DNA of 64,000 nt from Tetradesmus obliquus (Eukaryota; Chlorophyta; Chlorophyceae; Sphaeropleales; Scenedesmaceae): assembly GCA_030272155.1 (NCBI GenBank), contig CP126203.1, positions 2,480,001-2,544,000 of the forward strand, written 5' to 3'. Each line of letters starts with the position of its first letter. The first letter of the stretch is position 1. The notes beneath the pieces were generated by a model. It made no database searches. It was not told where the DNA came from and worked only from the letters and a program-made list of their open reading frames with translations. This document shows positions 41,251 through 55,460 of the stretch, one piece after another. The position numbers and the translations under genes were made by a program.

Positions 41251-44200
41251 ATGGGCAGATCATCAATCCTGTGCTACGTGGCGGTGCTGCTGCTCTCGCT
41301 GCACGGCTTACCCACGCCTTCCCATGCCGATGAGTTCACCGATACGCGAGTAACTATTCAGATCAACGTCGATAACCGCGGCAAGTGGTGCTCGCGGCAT
41401 TTCGGCAAGCCTCACAGGCCCTGCACCGGGGTGTTCAACCTGCGACTGCCTCGCTTCCTGCCCACCAACGAGACCAGGGGCAACGTCTTCAGACGCACTT
41501 GGGAGGACACTGTAAGTTCCTTGTTTTTGCTGCGTATAGAGCATGCCGTTGCTGACACGAGCCCTCCCTCCTGTCACTCCTTGCCGCTGCTGTTCCTCAA
41601 CGCCCTGGCTTCTGACCTTGCTTTGCTCTTTATATTCTGCTGCAGTGCGGCTTGTTCGACATCCTCGTGGGTCAGTACCTCGGCGCAGGCGAGGGCCCCC
41701 CACCCCACGTGCACTACGCAGATGAGGTGAGAGGGTGTGCGCTGCTGGCCCCTGTCCAGTGTTTTTTGTTTGCACAGCTGGCATTTCTTGAGCCTGTATA
41801 AAGCTACTGTACTTGTAACCAGCGTTGCTGCTACCCAAGATGAAGTTCTCGTCATCGCAGAGGCAGAGAATTGCCAGGGCTGCATGTGCATACTCCAGTG
41901 CGGTGCCTTCCACCACTCCTGTGCTGTAAAGCACATGTGCTGCCAATTGCTCTAGTGAGAGAGAGAGAGAGAGACTACGCGAGGCTAAGGTGCACTCCTG
42001 GCTGCCAGGGGCGCGGAAGCCTGCGTAAATTAAGGAACGAGGGTAGGCTTGCCGTCGCCGGCTCCGTACCCCCTACCCCTCCACCAGGTGACCGTGCGGC
42101 CCCCTGGAGAGGTTTATGCTGACCAAGGTAGGCGTCCTTGGTCAGCCCCGTCAGGGTACCAGTTTAGCTTTTCCGTCTTTTGACGTGTTTGCGGTGGCTT
42201 GGTGCCTTGAATGCCCTCTTCATGTTCGCTCTCTTGTTTTTGCTGCAGTTGTTGAGCTTCAGGTGTCCCAGGTGTTTGAGCAGTGCCCCGCGCTGCTTCC
42301 ATATCCTTTCCATGCCATTGATGGCGATGTAATGCAGGTCACACAGCAGCTTTTTGAGCGCGGATCCCTTGACTCCTAAGTTTGTCAGCTGTTGTTCTGT
42401 CTCCGTAAAAATTACACCGGTGACTCCCAGCAGGATATTGACCTGCCGTACACTGGGTCGCGAGTAGTCCGTATGCGAGATCGCGGCACACATGCTGGTC
42501 ATCTCTTGATTGCCTTGTGCGCCTAGTTCGGTTTGGGCGGAGGCACCGCTGATGCTGGTACGTAGGTGTTCATGTTGTTGGGTTGCTGTGGCATGTTGTG
42601 TGCTGCTATCAGTGTCCCTGCAATATTTGATTTCCACCACCGTGAATTCGTTGTGTTGGTGATTATACATCAGGGCATCCGGCACACTGTGTTGGTTGAT
42701 TAGGGCGCGCTGCACTGCGAGGGGAACCGCCTCCAAGTATGGGTTGGCGAAGTCCTCAGCAGTAAATCTTCTGCGGGTAGTCAGAGTGGTGCCATTGCGA
42801 GTGAGCTCCTCTTTGCTGCTTCTTTTGTGTACGCCAACATCCGATGTAACCAGTTCCCCACCTCTATCACCGTGTAGAATAGCCTTCACTATGGCGGTTC
42901 CCGCGTCGTTGTGTCGCAGTGTCACTGTTTGTGACAGCGCTGGGCAGCCGCTGATAGCATGGTGCCCTCCATCCTCTCTGCCGCACAGCAGGCACAGGCT
43001 GCTGGTGTTGCCTGTTTTGTCCCATCTGCTCAGCAGTTTCTGGGTGGGTACCTGCCCATAACGGGCTTGCAGCGGCAGCCGTTTTGTCTGCTGTGGCAGC
43101 TTGGGGTCGTTTATAAACAAGTGGCTGTACGCATGGTTCATGCCCGGGCATGCAGCCTCCCAGCTTCTGAAGTATATGGATTCTTGGTTTGAGGATCCCA
43201 GCTCTCCCGTTGTCAGCGCTATCTGCGCGAGAGTTTCACTCATATTGGCCAGTGGCACTAACCGGGTATGCTGCTCTGCTCCAGACGAGGATTCCGCCAA
43301 GGTCTCTGTGTGAGGCCATACCATATTGTTCCTATCATTACTCGGGTGGCTAAAGGTGCGAGATTCCCGTGGTGGCGTGTCACCCTTTGCCACGCTGCCA
43401 GCCGCCCGATCTGCCTCTTCGTTGCCCACTATGCCGATGTGGCTTTTCACCTTCCACAGGTGGACCGTTCCCTCATGTGCGGCGACCGTGTTAGCAATGC
43501 TTTTGATGAGTGCAAAGTGCCGATGCTCTAGCATGTCTTGTGGTCTCGTGTTTGCTTTGAAGATTTGCCTGATACTGCCCAGGCTGTCCGTGGCGATGTG
43601 CAGCACGTCTGTGCTTGCCATGTGTTGGTCTGCCGCTTCAAGAGCTACGGATATGGCTGCCAGTTCGGCTCTGTTGATTGTATCTACGTGTTGTTCTGAG
43701 GTGCAGCAGTTGATTGGGATGGTCACGGGCACACGCCCGGTGAGTGGGTTGGCGGGAATGTGCACAGCCGCTCCTATGCCAGGTCCTTTTTGCTTTCGGT
43801 CTTTGGGTAAGACACTACCGTCCGTGTAAAAAAGGGGTCCCTCCAGTCATGTTTGAGGGCTGGTATTTCTCCCTGCAGTGTTTTCATCATTACGATTGCC
43901 TCCTGTACTGCCCGTCGAGTTTGGTCTCCCGGACAGGCCTCTCTCGTTGTCTGATAGCCTTGAATGACACTCGACGCGCCAGGAGTGTCTGTGGTGCGTG
44001 CCTTCTGGTCATGTTGTCCTTTGTGAGTGTGACCTCTTGTCAGAGTGAGAAGCCTGTCGATTGGCGGCACTCGGGGGCGTTGATCGCAGTCATTAGGCCG
44101 TTGGCGGAATGTGCTTGGCAACGTGACGTTGTTTACATCCCGTGGCTGCCTAGAGATGTCCACAAAGCCGTCACCACTGTCTGCAGTCCCCCAATTGAGT

Positions 44201-47200
44201 CCTGGCCCGTTCGTTTCGCGATTAGCAAATATTTCATTCATTCGAGTCTTAAATTTATCCCAGGCAGTGGCGCCATACGGTTCCTGCCCCCAAAATGGCA
44301 GATACTCTCGAAACCCTGCCACGTTGCCCACTGCCAGCACGAATGTGTTCCATTTCAGCTTGGCATGGGGCGCGTGAGGCTTGTTGCCGGGGGGCTGGAG
44401 CTCCATCCTACTGCTGGGGATGACCAGCAAGCGCCTGCAGCATTCAGGGTGGCGGTGCACCCAGTGCATGTATGGGGCGTTGCTGTATCCATCCTTGCTG
44501 TCAGAGAAGCTGGGCAGGAACAGCAGAGTTAAGGTGGGTTTTGCGTGAGTTGCTTTTGCCGAGTATACTGCCCACTGGACTGCTTGTGTGGCCGCGTCCT
44601 GGTCAAAGTCAGGCACCGCAACGCTGGGGCCTGTCCACTTGCTGCTATATGCACTGCCTTGGGCGCCGAACATGTAGTCGTCCTTGAACGCAGAATAATA
44701 TTTGCTGCATGCTGGGTGGACATTGAGTGGGCTTGCAAAGCGTTCCTGTTTGCATCCCAGCTCGTGGAAAAGGTAGTCCTTGAGTGCAGCCGGCAGTGTG
44801 CACTGCTGCTTTTCACTGATGGTTTTGCCGCCATTCCCAGGCATGCAGTTGCCTGGCGCATATCTGGTCACCAGCTTCACCAGGTCTTGTTCATATGTGG
44901 TGGAGCCGAGCTTGATCATGAGCTTTCGGTGGTGCCTTTGCATGTGCTTGTATCTGAGGTGCAATGCTGCTGCCACTGCAGGGGCAAGCATGTGCTCACA
45001 TCGGCCGTCAGCATGGTACACGCATGCCAGCTCTCTGTGGCAGCAGGCAGACCCGTCCGGGCCTTCCCCAAATCTTACTTGCCGGAGAAGGACCTTTTGT
45101 GCACTGGTAGGTCCTATATCAGTGTGGGGATTTATTGGCAGCGCGTGCACCACCAGCTTTTGGCGTCTGGCCTGTCCTATCGTGATGTCGTACACGGAAT
45201 CGGCAGGCGGCGGGGGCCGTGGTGCGGGACAGGTCTGCTTGGGAGGAGGGGGGCTGCTGTCATCTGCCGTAAGTTGCATACCTTGGACTGCCGGCATTGA
45301 CAGCAACTGTTCCTTTGCGTGGTCTGTGCCGGCTGCCAACACTGTTGGTATGGGTTCGTATGCGTCCTGCCAGGTCGCCTTGTATAGCCAGAGCTCCGGC
45401 GGCAGTGTGTCTAAGGTCCATCGCTTTGCGCTGCATTGCCTGCATTTGTACTGCTGTCCAAGGACGGGCTGTGTGCCAGTTACGCACTGGACGTGGTACC
45501 GCCGGTGACACGCGCAGCAAGTGACGCTATCTGCTGCTGTGTCTCTCCGCGCGCAGATCTCACATGGCCATGGGATGCCTGTCAGAGCGACGTCGTCTGG
45601 CTGGATGCGGGTCGGCGGCGCCGCCGTCTTGTAGCCCAGTTCCAGGAAGACTTGCAGCACATACCCGAGCTGGGCAGACTCTCCCCATTTTACTTTCACC
45701 TGCAGTTGCGTAGATGGTTGTGGTGTGTTGAGTTTCACCCGCGCGGGGCCGCCGGTGTCCACGCTGACAATGGTTTCCGGTTTCAGAGAGTACTGTTCTT
45801 GCAGGCCCAGCAGCTCCTGCTGCAAACGCTCTTTGTCTGCACCACAGGCTGCCCTATGCTGCGTCATTTTTTCTTGCACTTTCTCGTAGCCTGTTTTTGC
45901 TGTGCTGCGAGTGTTGTGTGTCCTGGCAGTTGGTTGCCTGATCAGTGCTGCGTTGTTGCGCGCACTGCTATCAAGGACTGTGTGCCTTCGCATGTGCATT
46001 CTCTCTTCCACCGTGAGTGTCATCTTGCTTCTGATGCTGTGGATGCGGTCGCGGTTGCTGTGCTGCAGGTCTGCAAGCATGTGTACTATGGTGTGTGGCT
46101 TGGCATTTGGGTTGGCTGGCCACAACGTTTGCAGGGCCTCCTTGATAGACGCGTGCAGATGCCGGCTGGCGTGTGATATGCCTGCTGCCGTGTCGCAGTG
46201 TCCATCACGGATGTTTGTGCCTGTGGTGAGAAGGTGGCTTATCCTGTTCCATGCTGCTATTTGTTTCGCTCGGATTGTTCGGGCTCCCAGCATGGCCGCC
46301 AGGTCGGCAGCAGACCGCACTTTTGTGCGGGTGGCATCCAGCAGCTGTTCAATGGATTGCACCCCAGCGCTGCTGAGGGTGTGTATGTCCTGTACAAGTT
46401 GCCTGTCCCAGTGTGTGTGTCCATCGACCGCGTGCTCCAGTGCGGCGGCGAGCGTGCTCCTGTCTTTCATTGTGTCTAGTGGTTGCCCATCTTTGCAGAC
46501 TCTTAGATCGCAGCGCTTGAAGGCCATCAGCTGCCTCACTCGCATGCTGTATCTGAGGGTGTACGGCAGCTCCTGTGCAGTGAGATTGTCCATGCCCTGG
46601 CACTGGCACTGGTAGAGGGCGTTGCTGAGCACACCCAATGTGCCAGCGTTGTTGAGTGACCTGGTTAGTCGTTCCACTCCTATCTTGTTGTATTCAACCT
46701 CTAGTGAGTGGCAGCCCAGTCCCCCTTTGTCTCTGCTTAGGTGTGCGGCTGCTGTGGACATGCTGTTAGGCAGTCTGTGTGCCTTTTTGACCGCCTTGGT
46801 GAGCAGGCTGTCTAGGCACTTGATTTCTGCTAGTGTGTAGGGTGCTGCCATGAAAGCGTATGTTATAGACGGACGGATGGACTGCTCAAGTATGCGCTGT
46901 TTCTGCTGCGTGCTAGCGAGTGATTTGCCAAGGTTGTGGGTCATGTTCGCTACCTCCTCAAGCGTGGCTTTCAGTTGGTGTTTGTAGTTTAGGTCCATGG
47001 TAAGCAGGACGCCCAGGTGGCGAAACGGCTGTTTCGGCGATTGATATGTGATTTTCTTATCTTGTATGCTAATTGTGTTGCACAACCGTTGCGCCAGGGC
47101 AGTTTCGTCGTATGGCTGGTGTGGCTGGTCACCATGCAGGGCCCCTGTGACAGTGGTTTTGGTGTTATTCACATTGAGGTGCCCCCAGTCTGCATAGCGG

Positions 47201-50200
47201 CTCAGTTTGGCTGCTTGATGTTTCAGGTTTGCTAGCCCAGATCTGCCTCCCGTTATGATGTTGACGTCGTCTGCATATGTTATATCCGTTATTTGGTGTG
47301 CCTGCCTTTCGGCGGCATCGAGGTGAGCCAGCGCTCCCGGCCGGTACCCTTTGTTTCCTGCGCGCAGCCAGCGCAACAGCGGCTCCATGTATAGCACAAA
47401 CAGAAAGGGGGATAGGCTGTCGCCCTGTATGGTGCCGCGTTCTATGGGAATGCTTTTTGTCATGCCGTACGGGGTTTGCACTGCTGTTTTTGTTTGTGTG
47501 TACAGGTCTTTGACCACTTCGATTGCGTCTGTGGGGAAGTGCAGATCATACAGTATCATTAGCAGCTTGTCATGCGAGATGGTGTCAAACGCTTCAGTCA
47601 GGTCGGCTTGAATCATGAAAATGTTCTGTTTGAAAAGGTGGGCGTCTTCCAGCGCCATTATCATCATTTCCACCTGTTCTGCTGTGCTGCGTTTGTTGCG
47701 GAACCCAGCTTGAGAGCTGCTCAGCATGCCCAGTCGCTCAGCCCTGTCTGCCATGGTGCGCGTGACCATGCGTGTCCACAGCTTATATACAGTGAGCTCT
47801 AGTCCGATCCATCTGTAGTATTTGAGTTCTAGTGGCGTGCCTTTGTGTTTGTAGAGAAATAGCGTGGTGCTCCGCTTCCAGCTGTTTGGGGTGAGCCCTG
47901 TGGCCCACATGATGCGCATCATGTTGTGTAGCGCCTGGTGGCCTGATGGTGGTAGGGCCTTGATCACTTCATTGCACACGTCATCAGGCCCAGGTGTTTT
48001 GTTGTTTGCCAGTCCGTTCAGGCAGTGTTCAAACTCAAGCTCGTCATCTATGGCGTTATGTAGCCATTGTCGGTGGGTTGAGGCGGGTGCGGTGTGCTGC
48101 AGCAGGTTATGATATTGCCTAAATTCCTCATCAGTGGATGTGTCGAACGGGTAGTGCCGCGGTGCTTCTTCTGGGAGGTATTTCCCTTGCTTGCCGTTGG
48201 GTTCAGGTGCAGTGAACTTTCGGGTGGCAGTGGCTTCCACCTCTGGCAGTACTGTATGTTGTGTTGTTGCGTATGCTCCTTCCGGGGTTTTGATCACGCG
48301 CAGTGCCAGTGTGGGGTTGGGTTTGTGTTTGCCTAGGGCCAGCTTGTTTCCTCTGCGCTGATTTTGTTCCAGCCGTTGCTGTGTGCGCATTATCGCTTGC
48401 TGGTGGGCCAAACGGGGGCACTGCTTGTCTATTTCATTGAGCTGCGCACGTGTTTTGTCCCTCACCGCCTGGTGCGCCTGAACCACATCATGTTCGGGGT
48501 GTTCTTCTAGATGTTCTTGCACCAGCCGCTGCACTGTGGCAAACGCCTCCTGCGACGGCGTTGCCACGTGCTTGCTGTGGGGAGTTCTGTGCTTGGCCGT
48601 GTGCAGCAGCATCGTGGCGGCTTTGTGGTCTGCTGACGCTTGGTCACGCAGCGCGGTGACGTCGAGTGTGTCGTCTGCTGGAGATTGGTCTTGTCTCCCA
48701 TGGGCCCCCAGCACCACGCTGATTGCATGTCTGAGCTGCGCGAGGCGTTTGCGCGTACATCGCAGCCGTCTCTTCCTGTAGTGTTTCCAGCCGTGTGTGC
48801 TATCTATTGTGGGACACACCTCATATGCTTCATCCCTGGCATTGGCCAGTAGCGACAGGATCTTTTCCCCCAGAGCATTCACCACGTCGTTAGCCGGCTG
48901 CTCGTTTATGCGCTGCAGCGTGCGCGGCCGGTCGGCCGACGTGCACTCCAGTGCTTGCCAGTGTGGCCTGACATCCTGCTGTACTATGTTGGTTGTTTCT
49001 CGGAGCAGTGCTTCCCAGTCCTGGCCGTGTCGAGTGGCCAGGGCATGTTGTAGGGCCTTCGTGCTAGCTGTCGTGAGTCGTTTTAGGCGCACACCGCCGC
49101 GCTGCTGTGCTTGATCCGGCGGGGGCAACAGGTCCAGGGTTGTGAATGGCATGTGCAGCAAAAGGCCATGGTGGTCGAAGTATGTGCCCACAGTGTCTAC
49201 TACGGTGGTTTGCATGTGCTGTGTTAGGTCATGCCGCGATGGGTGCAGCGCATGACTCATCTGTATGTATATGTCATCTATGCGGCTGTGTTCATGAGCT
49301 GTTGTGCCCCGCAGGTACGTGTAGGCCCTGGCCGTGCCATCTGTGGGCGGTGGGTCCGTGTGGAGCAGTTGTGTGTCGGCCAAGAACTGGCGCAGGCTGT
49401 GGTCCCTTGCATATGCCTTGCCGTTAGCCCGATCATTGTCTTGGGCCGTGCCGTTCCAGTCACCTGCGAGCATGACGTTGTGCTTGTGTTCCTTTGCGTC
49501 GCGTAGCACCGTGGCGCATTCCTTGTAGATCTCGTCACGCAGTATCTTGGCGTTGCCATTTGGGGGGCTGTATACTCCTAGTACATGCAGCGGGGTTGAC
49601 GCGGGCAGGTCGATCTGCACGTGTGTGATGTACTGTGCCAGTGTTGTGTTGTGCAGCGGGATCTTCTGCACATTGCCTAGCTCGCAGAGAGGTTGCGTCA
49701 CCGCCACCACCACTCCGAACCTGGGTTCAGTATGAGAGGCTGTGGGTGATACATGAAGCGGGTTCATGAAGACCTGGTAGTCTTTCAGCAGGTGTTTTAG
49801 GGTGTCGTGTGTCCTGGTGTATTTGTGATCGGTGAGCACCACCAAGTGCGGTTTGTGACTTCCTGTGTTTTCAATCAGTTGTTTCAGTTCTGCGCGCTTG
49901 CTGGCTGCTCTATGGCTGCAGCCGCCTGGCCGCGTGGCAGATATGCCTTGCACATTCTGCAGATATAGCTTGAGGTGTTGCTGCTGAGCGGTGAGCAACG
50001 TGCTGCCATCACCTCCACTGGCGGGTTGTTGTGCTTCCTGGCGTGCTGGCTGCTCGGCAGGCTGGTGTGGCTGTGGTGGCTGCTTCTCGGTCGTCTGTAT
50101 TGGCAGCTGTGCCGGCGGCTGTGCTGGCAGTTGTGTTGGCTGGTGTGTGGGGCATTGTGACGGTCCCTGTGGCGGTTGTTGCGCCAGCTGCCTCACCGGG

Positions 50201-53200
50201 TGCTGTCCAGGGCTTTGCGCCACAGATTTGGCTTTTGGCCGGTGTGCTGGCTGCTCAGCAGGCGGACGCGTTGTTTGCTTCTCTTGTTGCTGTGGTGGCT
50301 GCTGCTTGGGCGGTTGTGCCGGCGGCTGTGCCGGCGGACGTGGTGGCGGCTGTGTCGGCTGGCGTGTCGGCTGCTGTTCAGGCCTGTGTGCTGCGGTGGC
50401 GGTTGCTGTGGTCGGCTTTGCCGCAGTGGTTGTGCCACTCACAGTTGCTGCCTTACGCAACAGCTGCTGGATGTCCTGTGTGTGCGAAGCTGCTACGTTG
50501 GGCTTGCGGCGCGGCCGCGCTTTGTGCGTGGCTGTTTTGGCAGGGTTGGTGGCCGCTTCTGTGGTGGGACGGGTGGTGAGCCCGAAGTACTTAGCTATTG
50601 TGTTATGTGTCAGAGGAGGCTGGCTGCTCTTGGAGGGTTTGCCTGGCTTACGGGAGGTGCGTGAGCTGGCTACGGGTGGGGTTAGCCTCGTGCCGCCGCT
50701 TGCTTGGGAGTGAGTGTTCGCCCGCGCCGTGTGGCTGGCTGGAAACGTGCCTGCCTGCGGCGCTGCGGTTGACAGCTGTTGTCGCTTGCTGGTTGGAGCA
50801 GTCTGTAATACGTGGCCAGCAGTGCGTTTTCTCCCGGCCGCCGTGTCTGTGCCCGTTGCATGCGGTGTGTCTGTGGACGTGGTTTGTTGCCGGGGGGTGT
50901 GGGCGGGAGTAACCGTGCCATCCGCGTTTACAATGCGTTGTTTGCTGGTGCTGTATTTCAGCGTGGTGCCATCCACCCATGTCAGTGTCTTGATGCTCGG
51001 GGCGGTGCGCGAGCCACGCGCGCGGTTAGGTCTGTGTGGTGGTTCGATCAAGGTGCATCCATATTCTATGGGGTCCATCTCGACCAGGCAGTACAGGCAA
51101 CCTGCAAAGTTCTCCCAGTCCCTTCGGTGCATGCGTTTCACCTTGCCTGTGGCCGCGTACGGTATGCTGTCACAATTGTACCAGTGGCCGTCTGCTGCTT
51201 GGCGCCAAGTAGTGAAGTGGTTGATCGAGGGTGTCAGGGCGAAGTGCGCTATGATGCCCTTGCAGTTGACGGGTGCGTAGTCCAGTATCTTTTGCTGGCT
51301 GTATCGTTGTTGCATGCAGTTCAGGAAGTTTCTCAGCGTCACCTGTCGTTGGCTGCTGCTGTGTTCTACTGCGTATAGGTTCAGGTGCGCTGGCCCATAG
51401 TTGCCATTGGGCTGCAGAGCTGCTAGTTCAGAGTGCGGAGCATTGCTTGATATAAGTGCCTGGTAGAAAAAGTTGGGCGCCACCCGTTTGCCCAGCAGGG
51501 CGTGCCATGCATGGCAGAGGCATTGCATATCTATTTGAGGTTCGCAGTACAGGCCAACCGCCGCGGGGTCCACCCAAACCTCCTGTTCTGTGTCCCCATC
51601 GTCGATGCTCATTGGTTTACCATGCACTGTTTCCGGTTGTGTTTGTGCGTGTTGTTCATCCGTTAGCATGGGCTGAGCTTCGTCATCTCCTCCTTCCTCG
51701 CTTGAGATGTCCATGTGTTCCACATCTGTTCGTGCTAGTGGGTTGCTCCAGTAGACATCAGGCTGCGCTGGTGGGTCTACCTGCATGTTGGTGTCAGGCG
51801 CTGCATCGGAGCGTTGTGCCGCCAGGCGGGCGAACATGCGCTCCTGGTGCGCGGCTGCCATGCACTTCACCGGCTCGGTACTGATTTGTATGGACCTCCC
51901 ATCAACAGCTACTCCCGTGTCTGGTTGTTGAGCGTAGAAGGTGTTCCCATGTTCATCAATTGGCATGAGCATACCCCTTCCAGCCATGTATGCGTCACCT
52001 GAGACCAAGCACATCATGTTGCCTGTGAACGCCTGCCAATCCTGCTCCGTCAGCTGTTTCACTTTTCCGTGCTCGGCATATGCGAGGCTTTCACACTCGT
52101 ACCAGCTGCCTTTGGAGTTGTTTGTGCTGTGTGTGCCCTGTGGGTGCACACGGGTTTCCTGCACCCAGGCTTTGTAGTGCAGAATGCGCGATCCTTCGTC
52201 GTTTATGTGCTCGTATTGAATGAATATGGCTGTGCACCCTGCTGGAGCGGCGCGTAGCGCGTCTGCTTGAGACATGCCAGGTTGTACCACTTCGAGGAAG
52301 GGGTGCAGCATGTACCTGGCACCCGTGTGTTCGTAGAGCCAGGTGTTGATTGCGGCTATGTCGTACTGTCCGTCGCGCTCGAGCAGGTCAGGGAGTACGT
52401 CCCCTGCGATGCGGGCGTTGGCAACGCTAGCTTGCAGCGCTCTTACCATGTATGTGGTGGCGTGGGTGATCGCAGCCCTGCCCAACATAGCGTTGAGTGC
52501 ATGTGCACCACAGTGTCGGTCTGCCTGTGCCTCACAATAAAGCCCCACGGAGCGGGGATCTATCCATGTGCCTTGCGGCAGTGGTCTTTTTTGTGGTCGC
52601 TTTCTGTAGGTGTGCCCCCCTCCTTTGATCGGCATTGTGCTAGCAGCTGCATCTCCCTTGGGTGCGGGTTGGTCAGCGCTGAGCGCCGGAGTTGATTGCG
52701 TGCTGGTGTTGACGGGTTCGTCCGTGCTGTCTTCGGATCTAGCTGTTGTCGCTGCTTCTGCTGTTGTTGTGGTGACTGTTGGCGTTGTCGCTGCTGTTGC
52801 TGCTGCCGCTGCTGCAGCAGCAGCTGCATTTGCCTTTTCTTGTATTGCTGCGATTAGTTTTGCTAGGTCGTTCAAGTGAGCTTCAAGTCGTGGCAGCATG
52901 AGTGTGCCATATAAGCTACGTTGCCAGTGTTTGTGTTGCCGCGCTGGTGTTGGTAACTTCCAGTGCAGCAGGTCATCCTTGACTCTAGCGAGGGTGGCTC
53001 GGCGGGTCTGCTTATTCAGCAGTTTACGCCTGGCTCGTTTAAATGACCTTTGTTTCACTCTGGCGAGCGCCACTAAGCGTCTGTGCACGGTGAGCTTACG
53101 CTGAGCTGCTGTGCGCATGCAGCGCCGACAGTTGGCGGTGGTCTGCTTATTCGGCTGTTTACGTCTGGTTCGTTTAGAGCGTCTTCGTTTCACCCTGGCA

Positions 53201-55460
53201 GGTGCTATTGTACGTCTGCAGGTGGTGAGTTGGCGCGGAGCTGCAGTGTGCGTGCGGCTCCTACAGTTGATGTTAACATCACCCACGTTGGTGGCTGGAG
53301 TGCGCGTTTGTGTACCATGCTGGGTAGCTGGCGCCGCCGCGCCTGCATGGGGCGTTACGTGTGAGTTGGTGGGGGGTGTTGGCATGCTGTTGCCGGGTGC
53401 GATGCTGGCAGCCCTGGCAGTGGGGATGCGGTGCAGTGCCAACATCAGCAGTAACAGCAGTAGTAGTTGGAGTGCCGGCTTGCTGAGTCCCCGCGGCCCT
53501 GTTGTTGGTTTAGCGACTGCAACTGTTGTTTCAAATAGTCGAGGGGGTCCTCCGCGGGGCGTCATGCACCAGGCAGTTGCCAGCAATGCAAGCGCGAGTG
53601 CCAGCAGGTGGAGTAGCTGCTGCATGATTGCTGCGTTTTGCAGTGGCTGGTCCTGCTGCAGCCGGGCTGCAAGCGCCGTTAATTCGTCCCGAAATACACG
53701 CATCTGCTCAATGCGTTCTGGGCTGTACTCATCGCTGTACACTGGTGGCAGTATCCTGCCATCGTGAATTTGGATCAAGACTGGCTGAGCGCCTGTGAGC
53801 AACGGTTCGGCAGCGGCAAAGGGCGTTTTGGTTAAGAACTGGTGATATCTTGGCAATGGTCTGTGTTGCGAGGGCTGCATTGGTGCTGTTGGAGCTGTGG
53901 GTGGCATGTGGCCTCTGAGCAGCTGCAGGGCAGGCATAGTCTGCTCCACGGCACAGGCATGTATCGGCTCCACAGGCTCGTTCATGGTCTGGCTCAGGAG
54001 CCACGGCAAAGATCTTTTTGTTTCGGTTGTTTGGTCCGGATTTAACCGTCCAGGGGTGAGAGGAGACCTCAGGCGAGGTGCTGAACAGGCATGATCCTCC
54101 ACATCCCTGCCGCGCCGAGGCCAGCCCCCAACTGGGCTTGGCTGCCTCGTGATCGCGACAAGAACGAGAAGTAAGATCCCTTTAAGCGTTCTCACCTGCC
54201 ATAGCGCCACTTGGTCGAGGCGCCTCCTCACGCCTGCCGATTGCTGACTACCTCTGCTTGCTTTAATGCATTTTAATTCATTATCCGGTGGCGAGTCCAG
54301 GACGTTGGACAACCTCTAGTGCTGCATGCACAACAAACAATGCATCCCTACAGTCTCCCACCCATTGCGGCTCCTGCAGCCTCACCCCTCGACCATTCGC
54401 CCGTCTCTGCTGCCTGCTTTTCTTTTGCAGGAGTGGTTCTTCCCATGGGGTGAAGGCAGTGTGCGCATGTACGCTGGCCAGAAGAGCATCAAGTACCTGC
54501 CAGGCCAGGTGCCAGGCTTCAACGCCCCCATCACTGTGCCTGGCTCTGCCTCCATCAAGAAAGGAGACATCCTGTACAGCCCTGTGGGGGTGGTGCACTG
54601 GTTCTCAGCTGAGGACAAGGGAGTGTACAACTTCATCCAGGTCCACGCATACGGTGAGCCTTGCACACTTCGAGTATCTGAATCTTGTGTCAGGTAGAGG
54701 GTGTGGAGCCCAGGGGCGCCGCCCCTGGCCACACACACCGTCTTAGCCTTACCTGCCAGCTACGCTATGCCCAGATTGGTTGCTGCTGGTGGCTACCGCG
54801 TGGTACCTTAATAATCCGACTGCACACACTGCCACCCACACTGCTGCTGCTGCTGCGTTGTTGTGCTGCCACGCTCCGACCTGCAGGCTATGCTATGCCG
54901 AAGATCATTGCCGCTGGCGGCAATCCCGAGATCTTCAATGATGACCGCAGGTTCCTGGAGTACACAGGTGGGTGGCGGTGCTTCAAGATGTGACGTGCTG
55001 CCCTGTTTTGTTGCTAGCTGCGTTTGCTGCGCTACGCTGCGGTGTGCTGTGCCGTGTTGTGTTGGGTTATTACTATTATATGCTGTGTTGGACTGTGCTG
55101 TTCTGCGCCGTGCTGTGCTGTTCTGCGTTGTGCTGTGCTGCGGTGTGATGTGCTGTGTCATGCTGTGCTGTGCGGCGCTTTACAATTTGGGCTGAGCTGA
55201 GTCATGACGACCCCTTTCCTAGCGCTTCTGCTACTCACTTCACTTCTGCTGCTGCTGCTGTTGCTGCAGGGCTGTGGGGCATCCCCCATGACAAGTCTGG
55301 CAAGATGGTTGGCATGAAGAACCTGACCAGCAACACCGAGTGGCCCCCAGTTGAGGGCACCTACCGCTCTGCTACCGGCCCAGTGAAGCTGTTTGACCCA
55401 GACCTCAAGCGCCTGCAGAAGATGTTTGATGACTCTGAGCGCTGCTACCCCCGCAAATAA
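41251..55460 (+). CDS. secreted cupin-domain protein, intron 2 carrying a retrotransposon
   Basis: Exons 41251-41511, 41646-41726, 54431-54653, 54887-54967 and 55270-55460 join in phase to 278 aa. The start MGRSSILCYVAVLLLSL has good context and a signal peptide ending near THADEF-like PSHADEF; ATG at 41236 is an alternative. Cupin motif 1 is perfect across the exon 2/3 junction: HxH at 108/110, Glu114, then E-x6-G (HVHYADE joined to EWFFPWGEG). Motif 2, GDILYSPVGVVHW, has the G-x5-P-x-G-x2-H pattern but Ala where Asn is common. The domain is therefore a metal-binding beta barrel; enzymatic role unknown. Intron 2 is 12.7 kb because of the antisense LINE. All exons are intact, so the gene may still work if the intron is spliced. 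Confidence 0.85.
41950..41957. repeat. target-site duplication, left copy
   Basis: CTCTAGTG, identical to 54314-54321, directly next to the retrotransposon's 3' tail. Confidence 0.75.
41958..41974 (-). repeat. (CT)n 3' tail of the retrotransposon
   Basis: Dinucleotide run at the 3' end in element sense, in place of poly(A). Abuts the target-site duplication. Confidence 0.75.
42164..43834 (-). CDS. retrotransposon RNase H - CCHC - restriction-like endonuclease region (-1 frame)
   Basis: Open from the T6 run at 43828-43833 to the stop at 42164. RNase H acidic residues are all visible: TDGS, RAELAAI, HIATDS and GNEEADRAAG, with VKSHIG before the last. RNase H would remove the RNA template. After it comes a CCHC knuckle (CLLCGREDGGHHAISGC), an RHN motif (TLRHNDAG) and a PD-x-E-x-K-like block (VPDALMY then VVEIKY), the order known for the restriction-like endonucleases of R2-type LINEs. 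The C-terminus is basic (KHVKRRKS). The frame is -1 relative to the main ORF, which otherwise stops 55 bases after the run, so expression needs frameshifting or a corrected indel. Confidence 0.8.
   Translation of the reverse strand, partial: LFYTDGSVLPKDRKQKGPGIGAAVHIPANPLTGRVPVTIPINCCTSEQHVDTINRAELAAISVALEAADQHMASTDVLHIATDSLGSIRQIFKANTRPQDMLEHRHFALIKSIANTVAAHEGTVHLWKVKSHIGIVGNEEADRAAGSVAKGDTPPRESRTFSHPSNDRNNMVWPHTETLAESSSGAEQHTRLVPLANMSETLAQIALTTGELGSSNQESIYFRSWEAACPGMNHAYSHLFINDPKLPQQTKRLPLQARYGQVPTQKLLSRWDKTGNTSSLCLLCGREDGGHHAISGCPALSQTVTLRHNDAGTAIVKAILHGDRGGELVTSDVGVHKRSSKEELTRNGTTLTTRRRFTAEDFANPYLEAVPLAVQRALINQHSVPDALMYNHQHNEFTVVEIKYCRDTDSSTQHATATQQHEHLRTSISGASAQTELGAQGNQEMTSMCAAISHTDYSRPSVRQVNILLGVTGVIFTETEQQLTNLGVKGSALKKLLCDLHYIAINGMERIWKQRGALLKHLGHLKLNNCSKNKRANMKRAFKAPSHRKHVKRRKS
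43774..53985 (-). CDS. retrotransposon polyprotein: 2x Josephin-like protease, APE, RT, PHD, PCIF1-like
   Basis: 3,403 aa from the first in-frame ATG (53985); the frame is open to the element's 5' end without another ATG. Approximate order by residue: two hydrophobic helices (121-139, 171-189); tandem basic repeats with KRRRSKRTRRK (240-330); Josephin-like domain A (470-660, CGAHALN, later LHYKAW); domain B (800-970, CLCHAWH, later NHFTTW); Pro/Gln-rich linker; APE endonuclease (1337-1606, YLQNVQG, LAGDWNG, SRIDDIYI, DHHG); RT (1986-2284, QADLTEAFD, QGDSLSPFLF, TYADDVN); PHD finger (2805-2849, CEIC, CCACHRRYHVQC, CRQC); PCIF1-like region (3076-3240, FASPLN, FGAQGS, AVPDF). The first five are enough to call a non-LTR element of Dualen type. 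The frame ends in the -1 shift before RNase H. Confidence 0.88.
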   Translation of the reverse strand: MNEPVEPIHACAVEQTMPALQLLRGHMPPTAPTAPMQPSQHRPLPRYHQFLTKTPFAAAEPLLTGAQPVLIQIHDGRILPPVYSDEYSPERIEQMRVFRDELTALAARLQQDQPLQNAAIMQQLLHLLALALALLATAWCMTPRGGPPRLFETTVAVAKPTTGPRGLSKPALQLLLLLLLMLALHRIPTARAASIAPGNSMPTPPTNSHVTPHAGAAAPATQHGTQTRTPATNVGDVNINCRSRTHTAAPRQLTTCRRTIAPARVKRRRSKRTRRKQPNKQTTANCRRCMRTAAQRKLTVHRRLVALARVKQRSFKRARRKLLNKQTRRATLARVKDDLLHWKLPTPARQHKHWQRSLYGTLMLPRLEAHLNDLAKLIAAIQEKANAAAAAAAAAATAATTPTVTTTTAEAATTARSEDSTDEPVNTSTQSTPALSADQPAPKGDAAASTMPIKGGGHTYRKRPQKRPLPQGTWIDPRSVGLYCEAQADRHCGAHALNAMLGRAAITHATTYMVRALQASVANARIAGDVLPDLLERDGQYDIAAINTWLYEHTGARYMLHPFLEVVQPGMSQADALRAAPAGCTAIFIQYEHINDEGSRILHYKAWVQETRVHPQGTHSTNNSKGSWYECESLAYAEHGKVKQLTEQDWQAFTGNMMCLVSGDAYMAGRGMLMPIDEHGNTFYAQQPDTGVAVDGRSIQISTEPVKCMAAAHQERMFARLAAQRSDAAPDTNMQVDPPAQPDVYWSNPLARTDVEHMDISSEEGGDDEAQPMLTDEQHAQTQPETVHGKPMSIDDGDTEQEVWVDPAAVGLYCEPQIDMQCLCHAWHALLGKRVAPNFFYQALISSNAPHSELAALQPNGNYGPAHLNLYAVEHSSSQRQVTLRNFLNCMQQRYSQQKILDYAPVNCKGIIAHFALTPSINHFTTWRQAADGHWYNCDSIPYAATGKVKRMHRRDWENFAGCLYCLVEMDPIEYGCTLIEPPHRPNRARGSRTAPSIKTLTWVDGTTLKYSTSKQRIVNADGTVTPAHTPRQQTTSTDTPHATGTDTAAGRKRTAGHVLQTAPTSKRQQLSTAAPQAGTFPASHTARANTHSQASGGTRLTPPVASSRTSRKPGKPSKSSQPPLTHNTIAKYFGLTTRPTTEAATNPAKTATHKARPRRKPNVAASHTQDIQQLLRKAATVSGTTTAAKPTTATATAAHRPEQQPTRQPTQPPPRPPAQPPAQPPKQQPPQQQEKQTTRPPAEQPAHRPKAKSVAQSPGQHPVRQLAQQPPQGPSQCPTHQPTQLPAQPPAQLPIQTTEKQPPQPHQPAEQPARQEAQQPASGGDGSTLLTAQQQHLKLYLQNVQGISATRPGGCSHRAASKRAELKQLIENTGSHKPHLVVLTDHKYTRTHDTLKHLLKDYQVFMNPLHVSPTASHTEPRFGVVVAVTQPLCELGNVQKIPLHNTTLAQYITHVQIDLPASTPLHVLGVYSPPNGNAKILRDEIYKECATVLRDAKEHKHNVMLAGDWNGTAQDNDRANGKAYARDHSLRQFLADTQLLHTDPPPTDGTARAYTYLRGTTAHEHSRIDDIYIQMSHALHPSRHDLTQHMQTTVVDTVGTYFDHHGLLLHMPFTTLDLLPPPDQAQQRGGVRLKRLTTASTKALQHALATRHGQDWEALLRETTNIVQQDVRPHWQALECTSADRPRTLQRINEQPANDVVNALGEKILSLLANARDEAYEVCPTIDSTHGWKHYRKRRLRCTRKRLAQLRHAISVVLGAHGRQDQSPADDTLDVTALRDQASADHKAATMLLHTAKHRTPHSKHVATPSQEAFATVQRLVQEHLEEHPEHDVVQAHQAVRDKTRAQLNEIDKQCPRLAHQQAIMRTQQRLEQNQRRGNKLALGKHKPNPTLALRVIKTPEGAYATTQHTVLPEVEATATRKFTAPEPNGKQGKYLPEEAPRHYPFDTSTDEEFRQYHNLLQHTAPASTHRQWLHNAIDDELEFEHCLNGLANNKTPGPDDVCNEVIKALPPSGHQALHNMMRIMWATGLTPNSWKRSTTLFLYKHKGTPLELKYYRWIGLELTVYKLWTRMVTRTMADRAERLGMLSSSQAGFRNKRSTAEQVEMMIMALEDAHLFKQNIFMIQADLTEAFDTISHDKLLMILYDLHFPTDAIEVVKDLYTQTKTAVQTPYGMTKSIPIERGTIQGDSLSPFLFVLYMEPLLRWLRAGNKGYRPGALAHLDAAERQAHQITDITYADDVNIITGGRSGLANLKHQAAKLSRYADWGHLNVNNTKTTVTGALHGDQPHQPYDETALAQRLCNTISIQDKKITYQSPKQPFRHLGVLLTMDLNYKHQLKATLEEVANMTHNLGKSLASTQQKQRILEQSIRPSITYAFMAAPYTLAEIKCLDSLLTKAVKKAHRLPNSMSTAAAHLSRDKGGLGCHSLEVEYNKIGVERLTRSLNNAGTLGVLSNALYQCQCQGMDNLTAQELPYTLRYSMRVRQLMAFKRCDLRVCKDGQPLDTMKDRSTLAAALEHAVDGHTHWDRQLVQDIHTLSSAGVQSIEQLLDATRTKVRSAADLAAMLGARTIRAKQIAAWNRISHLLTTGTNIRDGHCDTAAGISHASRHLHASIKEALQTLWPANPNAKPHTIVHMLADLQHSNRDRIHSIRSKMTLTVEERMHMRRHTVLDSSARNNAALIRQPTARTHNTRSTAKTGYEKVQEKMTQHRAACGADKERLQQELLGLQEQYSLKPETIVSVDTGGPARVKLNTPQPSTQLQVKVKWGESAQLGYVLQVFLELGYKTAAPPTRIQPDDVALTGIPWPCEICARRDTAADSVTCCACHRRYHVQCVTGTQPVLGQQYKCRQCSAKRWTLDTLPPELWLYKATWQDAYEPIPTVLAAGTDHAKEQLLSMPAVQGMQLTADDSSPPPPKQTCPAPRPPPPADSVYDITIGQARRQKLVVHALPINPHTDIGPTSAQKVLLRQVRFGEGPDGSACCHRELACVYHADGRCEHMLAPAVAAALHLRYKHMQRHHRKLMIKLGSTTYEQDLVKLVTRYAPGNCMPGNGGKTISEKQQCTLPAALKDYLFHELGCKQERFASPLNVHPACSKYYSAFKDDYMFGAQGSAYSSKWTGPSVAVPDFDQDAATQAVQWAVYSAKATHAKPTLTLLFLPSFSDSKDGYSNAPYMHWVHRHPECCRRLLVIPSSRMELQPPGNKPHAPHAKLKWNTFVLAVGNVAGFREYLPFWGQEPYGATAWDKFKTRMNEIFANRETNGPGLNWGTADSGDGFVDISRQPRDVNNVTLPSTFRQRPNDCDQRPRVPPIDRLLTLTRGHTHKGQHDQKARTTDTPGASSVIQGYQTTREACPGDQTRRAVQEAIVMMKTLQGEIPALKHDWRDPFFTRTVVSYPKTESKKDLA
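43828..43837 (-). other. candidate -1 frameshift site (C4T6)
   Basis: In element sense CCCC TTTTTT ACACGGAC. Zero frame reads CCC TTT TTT ACA; the -1 frame reads CTT TTT TAC ACG GAC and gives the RNase H TDGS motif at once. It may be programmed or a replication/sequencing slip. Confidence 0.55.
54314..54321. repeat. target-site duplication, right copy
   Basis: CTCTAGTG, abutting the inferred 5' end of the retrotransposon. Confidence 0.75.
54755..54800 (+). repeat. partial copy of cupin exon 4 5' edge
   Basis: A degenerate copy of the edge coding YAMPKIIAAGG, with a CCAG acceptor, ~125 bp before the true exon at 54887. Confidence 0.75.

Follow-up and report, generated by a model that had tools for sequence, protein, structure and literature searches.

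A LINE in the Tetradesmus obliquus window (the whole 64,000-nt stretch of DNA analysed here) carries in its polyprotein, between a PHD-like finger and RNase H, a domain homologous to the catalytic part of the cap adenosine methyltransferase PCIF1, in which the catalytic asparagine of the NPPF motif is replaced. The domain holds a fixed position in the polyproteins of related families, is retained clade-wide in this genome and evolves under constraint. Judging from sequence, we give about even odds (roughly 0.5) to the reading that it derives from a single ancient capture, lost the catalytic Asn and was kept as a non-catalytic nucleic-acid-binding module. The features are as follows.

41957..54313, minus strand: LINE element of the window, family A, about 12.4 kb, with a (CT)n tail at the 3' end of its own strand
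43774..54315, minus strand: open frame of the LINE polyprotein P0001, 3513 aa, stop to stop
49315..49956, minus strand: APE-like endonuclease domain, residues 1454-1667 (Pfam Exo_endo_phos, E=1.8e-4, 21.8 bits, just under the cut-off of 24.5)
47062..47826, minus strand: reverse transcriptase (RT), residues 2164-2418 (Pfam RVT_1, E=5.2e-23)
45433..45564, minus strand: PHD-like zinc finger, residues 2918-2961 (Pfam PHD, E=0.0029, below cut-off)
44266..45195, minus strand: PCIF1-like domain, whole conserved unit, residues 3041-3350 (block conserved across families A-D; dN/dS)
44488..44901, minus strand: match to Pfam PF12237 (PCIF1_WW), residues 3139-3276 (E=1.9e-11, 44.3 bits, cut-off 31.1)
44722..44739, minus strand: FASPLN, common to PCIF1 (profile and row alignments)
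44653-44700, minus strand: YYSAFKDDYMFGAQGS, quoted word in frame
44605..44616, minus strand: VPDF at the place of PCIF1 NPPF (profile and row alignments)
44506-44526, minus strand: LLFLPSF, quoted word in frame
44410-44436, minus strand: RRLLVIPSS, quoted word in frame
44311-44349, minus strand: NTFVLAVGNVAGF, quoted word in frame
43388..43834, minus strand: RNase H domain, residues 5-153 of P0002, a separate frame in the window copy (Pfam RNase_H, E=8e-14)
42626..42994, minus strand: CxxC..H..C followed by PD...ExK, candidate restriction-like endonuclease (RLE) region (invariant letters; profile match to R2)

The first-pass annotation had quoted the words listed above as lying downstream of a PHD finger, in an order recalling PCIF1, and had delimited the region as 44270..44760. 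All of them occur in that order in the minus-strand frame 43774-54315, at coordinates running from 44739 down to 44311, and they do lie past the PHD-like finger. The region is PCIF1-like as proposed; the conserved unit is longer, extending approximately from 44266 to 45195. The PF12237 match, which exceeds the Pfam cut-off, corresponds to the methyltransferase core in spite of the family name, and the match of the host's own PCIF1 gene spans the stretch aligned to the NPPF region in PDB. No family other than PCIF1 was returned for this segment by Pfam at E<=10. When the single sequence was compared with PDB by phmmer, PCIF1 was matched weakly (E 0.19 and 0.22) and was the sole match at E<=10; with a profile of 14 rows, all from this genome and several of them near-identical copies, the two PCIF1 sequences reached E=1.4e-5 and 6e-5, and nothing else among 177,635 matched at E<=10. 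Comparison by hhalign with a PCIF1 alignment of three rows (two PDB fragments and one host gene) gave a probability of 96.5, E=9.1e-10 and a score of 70.3 over 189 columns. The highest score in 100 column shuffles was 21.2 (mean 14.0) and the reversed alignment scored 13.5; chance resemblance to PCIF1 was thus rejected.

The alignment begins in the last part of the PCIF1 helical domain and runs through the methyltransferase domain, with about 25% identity between the LINE domain and the PCIF1 rows. The three PCIF1 rows are identical at 75 of the aligned columns; every LINE row agrees with them at 17 of these, only some LINE rows do so at 23, and no LINE row does at the other 35. The best-conserved words (FASPLN, D..FG and TG.S.A.P) are those surrounding the PCIF1 active-site motif, and every aligned LINE row has FASPLN itself or a form that differs at one or two residues. 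What the domain has in common with PCIF1/CAPAM (PF12237; PDB 6irv, 6irx) is therefore the alignable stretch, which starts towards the end of the helical domain and takes in the methyltransferase domain, with the words FASPLN, SAF..D..FG and GS.A.P. It differs from it in having no NPPF, in being part of a mobile-element polyprotein, in the WW domain, for which Pfam gave no match in P0001 at E<=1, and in the block with which the LINE unit opens. This LINE-specific block, YDITxGQ..R....H..PINPHTD (window 44902-45195, residues 3041-3138), precedes the PCIF1-like core, and its sequence is conserved from family to family; no PCIF1 counterpart was found for its ~97 residues, and neither Pfam nor PDB gave a match for the segment beyond PCIF1's own region. 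Altogether, the significant PF12237 matches and the exclusive return of PCIF1 in sequence searches support the suggestion, already made in the annotation, that a retroelement captured a PCIF1-type domain. The captured piece would include the end of the PCIF1 helical domain and would have been fused between the PHD-like finger and RNase H.

The 3' edge of the element is sharp at 41957 and common to two copies (L046 and L047) whose flanks differ. At the 5' side, homology to another copy (L056) reaches 54283, and the final ~30 bases are based solely on a candidate target duplication of 7 bases, CTCTAGT (41950-41956 and 54314-54320), which is suggestive only. The APE-like domain lies upstream of the RT, where expected for a Dualen-group LINE, with a match slightly under the cut-off. 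The solved RTs closest to that of the window in a PDB search are R2 proteins (best E=1.1e-15; best LINE-1, 5.3e-4). RNase_H exceeds the Pfam cut-off in families A, B and C. In the C-terminal region, the C, C, H, C and the P, D, E, K letters are invariant in all three of these families, and a profile of the region matches R2 proteins at E=0.0011 and 0.002, the match covering positions 14-90, that is, the finger and not the PD-ExK part. RNase H and the CxxC..H..C/PD-ExK region occupy a second frame in the window copy (42164-43846), while RT, PCIF1-like domain and RNase H share one frame in copies of family A (L046), family B (L048) and family C (L049). The PHD-like finger is found at the same place in L046 (E=0.00086) and L048 (E=0.091), below the cut-off in both; L049 gave no PHD match at E<=0.1 in Pfam and has, as read by eye, a cysteine-rich finger at this position. 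Counting the latter, the order RT, finger, PCIF1-like domain and RNase H is identical in families A, B and C.

Some further observations were made on the element. The frame change of the window copy falls at 43774-43846, just before RNase H. Two other family A copies (L002 and L003) are in-frame there and a third (L004) is in-frame into RNase H as far as its match extends; copies with an open frame thus exist. In the C11 copy L045, homology to the window ends at window position 43579, inside RNase H, so that this copy seems to be 3'-shortened, which is unusual for a LINE. In the N-terminal part of P0001 (window 51000-52600, minus strand; residues ~590-790 and ~925-1100) are two similar stretches, GLYCEAQADRHCGAHALNAMLG and GLYCEPQIDMQCLCHAWHALLG, which by eye we take to resemble tandem Josephin- or OTU-type cysteine peptidase domains. 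Their sole Pfam trace is Peptidase_C98 (E=0.6, second stretch), and a PDB search with 51900-52599 returned no relevant relative. Rfam gave no match within the window at the gathering score.

LINEs of the Dualen/RandI group are described, in the available text of PMC4640811, as combining APE, RLE and RNase H. The window element resembles this group in its RNase H, in a candidate APE-like domain (under cut-off), in an RT nearest to R2 among solved structures, and in an R2-like CxxC..H..C finger with a conserved PD-ExK pattern, a candidate RLE. To this it adds the PCIF1-like domain and the PHD-like finger, in a comparison made by description: named Dualen elements may carry them as well. Since both endonuclease assignments fall short of certainty and the group is known here from its description, the element appears best termed Dualen-like.

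The PCIF1-like domain starts ~80 residues past the PHD-like finger, in the same frame. It could accordingly be envisaged that the domain, without catalysis, serves as a tether to other proteins or to chromatin rather than as an RNA binder. Acting with the finger, it would anchor the polyprotein to chromatin or to RNA polymerase II, steering target choice or escaping silencing. Precedents are available. PCIF1 function can outlast a dead active site (PMC12896973, in the part of the text consulted). Drosophila Pcif1, termed catalytic-dead in excerpts of PMC9479742 and PMC10544176, is likewise a PCIF1 protein kept after a change in NPPF, and a paper cited in the latter assigns it a role in expression and fertility; the change there is Phe to His in a cellular gene, whereas in the LINE domain Asn and a Pro are changed and the carrier is a mobile element. 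Captured chromodomains of LTR elements are thought to target integration (PMC5348765, as excerpted). However, the missing WW domain, through which PCIF1 binds polymerase II, argues against the LINE having copied the contact that PCIF1 itself makes with the polymerase, and the conserved words FASPLN, D..FG and TG.S.A.P surround the active-site motif rather than outlining any obvious docking surface. We hold a tether to be unlikely.

At the active site, PCIF1 EANPPF aligns with VAVPDF in the window copy: Asn is changed to Val, the first Pro is kept, the second is changed to Asp, and Phe is kept. Profile, hhalign and row alignments agree on this placement, which is the one originally annotated. 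A genome search with the domain as query gave at least 26 matches; 18 of 26 loci cover the motif and all 18 were read. The other eight stop short of it (two of them, L013 and L021, overlap or adjoin read loci), and C4:7215122, which starts at the motif, was left out of the 18-copy count. The motif reads VPDF in five copies, VPNF in four, VPDT in four, CPDF in two, and VPGT, CPDY and TPPS in one each. None of the 18 copies has the catalytic Asn. Seventeen have also lost the second Pro, the exception being L025, a decayed fragment that retains two prolines and whose similarity to most queries stops at the motif. Asp or Asn is found at the third place in 16, the exceptions being L017 (VPGT) and L025 (TPPS). 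The annotation had asked whether NPPF occurs in sibling elements; as Asn is gone from every one of this genome's copies read, the altered motif is a clade-wide trait in this genome. A second NPPF-like motif elsewhere in the domain was also considered and rejected: the sole occurrence of [DNSHQ]PP[YFWHL] in the five element frames read is QPPL at residue 1232, outside the domain and far upstream.

According to the available text of PMC11550742, the PCIF1 mutants N553A and F556G have lowered activity; in METTL16, N184A and PP185/186AA abolish methylation, and the motif of this enzyme class is given as [DNSH]PP[YFW] (PMC7927073, as excerpted). The absence of Asn, taken with these mutant effects, makes methyl transfer to N6 unlikely, and we think it probable that this activity has been lost. 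Of the two functions initially considered for the domain, the loss of Asn thus disfavours modification of the cap-adjacent base; the better candidate would be the other, a dead module that binds the cap or RNA. Two arginines, R239 and R269, are named for cap-ribose contact in the same part of PMC11550742; their positions are N-terminal to the alignable part, hence cap binding cannot be argued from residues. The Glu named there is not confidently placeable, the host gene itself differing from the animal proteins just after NPPF.

An active methyltransferase, using xP[DN]F as an altered motif on a different target such as the cDNA or RNA of the element, would account for the near-constancy of FASPLN in all aligned LINE rows, for the Asp or Asn at the third place in 16 of 18 copies and for the strong constraint in families B, C and D described below. 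Retrotransposons with working cytosine methyltransferases are known (PMC5890265, in the part consulted) and are the closest printed parallel to the present case, a host-type methyltransferase having been captured into a retroelement frame. There, however, the enzyme is a working DNA cytosine methyltransferase, whereas the LINE domain would have the fold of an RNA adenine enzyme and lacks the catalytic Asn. With that residue gone from 18 of 18 copies, its mutation crippling both PCIF1 and METTL16 (excerpts of PMC11550742 and PMC7927073), and the class motif [DNSH]PP[YFW] found in none of the five element frames read, we regard retained activity as improbable.

The domain accompanies the RTs of one clade, defined by at least 47% RT identity. 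For 10 of the 11 RTs found in this clade, it lies downstream on the same strand at a distance of no more than 4.5 kb; none of the 76 other RTs found, all at 28% identity or less, has it there. Both sets are drawn from the best-scoring candidates. No domain was found downstream of C6:5848090, a broken clade RT fragment. From family A to B and from A to C, RT identity falls from 72% to 57% and domain identity from 44% to 33%, the range for the domain between families being 32-45%. This co-occurrence and the parallel fall in identity fit one capture before the family split, followed by descent within the element; loss of the catalytic Asn would then also have preceded the divergence of this genome's families.

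In the diverged copies, dN/dS of the domain is 0.16 and 0.15 in family B, 0.18 and 0.19 in family C and 0.21 in family D; binomial tests against neutral site proportions gave p=5e-10 (B), 2e-8 (C) and 3e-5 (D). Only in family C could an RT of similar divergence be set beside the domain; dN/dS there is 0.16 for the RT and 0.21 for the RT-PHD linker, and the linker in family B has 0.22 and 0.18. The close pair of B with C17 shows two changes in the domain, three in the RT and six in the linker, too few to weigh. Family A copies, with values of 0.36-0.58 on 5-9 changes per pair, are too alike for constraint to be demonstrable; whole-match values in this family (0.48-1.79) include the out-of-frame tail of the window copy, and domain-only values were therefore used. 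The family C pair L015-L019 has 0.55 on 11 changes; in the same element (C11) the domain-only count is 0 changes in 191 codons, so that these changes sit in a few codons at the fragment edge.

A decaying passenger without function would fit the loss of the catalytic motif, the stops inside the domain in three copies (L005, L018 and L024) and the internal deletion in L020 (C17:791067-791390), which removes the methyltransferase part and joins the N-terminal block to RNase H in a 799-aa open frame. L020 also counts against the reading favoured here, as the domain may be dispensable in some copies, or else L020 may be dead. Yet dN/dS of 0.15-0.21 in three families, near the RT value where the two can be compared (family C), indicates that the domain is not decaying; together with frames open across it in long copies and its upkeep at 32-45% identity between families, this largely refutes the passenger explanation.

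The genome also has a PCIF1 gene of its own. A search with PF12237 found 18 places, 16 of them over the cut-off. Two of the 16 are adjoining pieces in different frames at C10:3565590-3566307, which we read as exons of a spliced host PCIF1 gene; it retains EANPPF and, with exons joined by eye, matches PF12237 at E=2.7e-48 and PDB PCIF1 at 4e-35. The other 14, the window included, coincide with LINE places. At ~25% identity to the PCIF1 rows, the LINE domain is not a recent copy of the host gene. A weak match under the cut-off (20.7 bits) at C17:1870418-1870591 (L051/L044) may represent a second cellular PCIF1-like gene or a remnant. That the domain comes from another family of Rossmann methyltransferases and merely resembles PCIF1 is very improbable. 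In its favour, PDB is matched weakly by the sequence taken singly (E 0.19), no PCIF1 counterpart was found for the first ~97 residues of the unit, and the evidence for homology is at sequence level; against it, only PCIF1 was returned at E<=10 in Pfam and in PDB for this segment, and the alignment reaches into the end of the helical domain.

Relatives were also sought beyond this genome. Scans of viral contigs with the LINE domain, the host PCIF1, the PCIF1 alignment and the RLE region found none; the VPDF codon pattern matched 25 viral contigs, none of which encodes a relative at E<=0.1. The prokaryote genome scan with the PCIF1 alignment, phage records and PHROGs gave none either. The viral and prokaryote contig scans depend on short peptide patterns and can miss relatives; within the viral, phage and prokaryote collections, neither a relative of the LINE domain nor a source in viruses or bacteria was found. 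Among the matches listed in the literature on PCIF1, transposons and chlorophytes, we found no description of a PCIF1/LINE fusion, and an earlier notice is possible.

Taking these data together, we favour a single, ancient capture, in which a lineage of Dualen-like LINEs acquired the core of a PCIF1-type methyltransferase acting on the cap adenosine; after loss of the catalytic Asn the fold would have been retained under purifying selection. Dead enzyme domains can serve as structural parts in retroelements, the tether RNase H being an example (PMC5348765, as excerpted). The place of the domain between RT and RNase H and its constraint point to a role in reverse transcription, and the simplest use of a dead RNA methyltransferase would be to bind capped RNA, an RNA end or an exposed adenine. 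We thus tentatively suggest, at slightly under even odds, nucleic-acid binding as the function of the module, its likeliest ligand being the 5' end of the RNA of the element itself or a flipped adenine. The retrotransposition step would be target-primed reverse transcription, during which the module would hold the template on the RT. In a more specific and rather doubtful version, a cap methylase has been turned into a reader of the cap-proximal end of the LINE's own RNA, by which the RT would pick a capped full-length template and grip its 5' end. To our knowledge, no such 5'-end tether is known in any LINE.

Truncation at the 5' end is frequent among LINE copies, and the question of how the machinery locates that end of its RNA and holds on to it has yet to be settled. 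Here a conserved domain with an altered catalytic motif, related to an enzyme that recognises m7GpppA, lies between RT and RNase H and offers a concrete, testable candidate for such a function. The LINE domain would provide a natural PCIF1 pseudoenzyme in several diverged families. If the proposed reading is true, RNA-capping machinery would join the host functions captured by retroelements.
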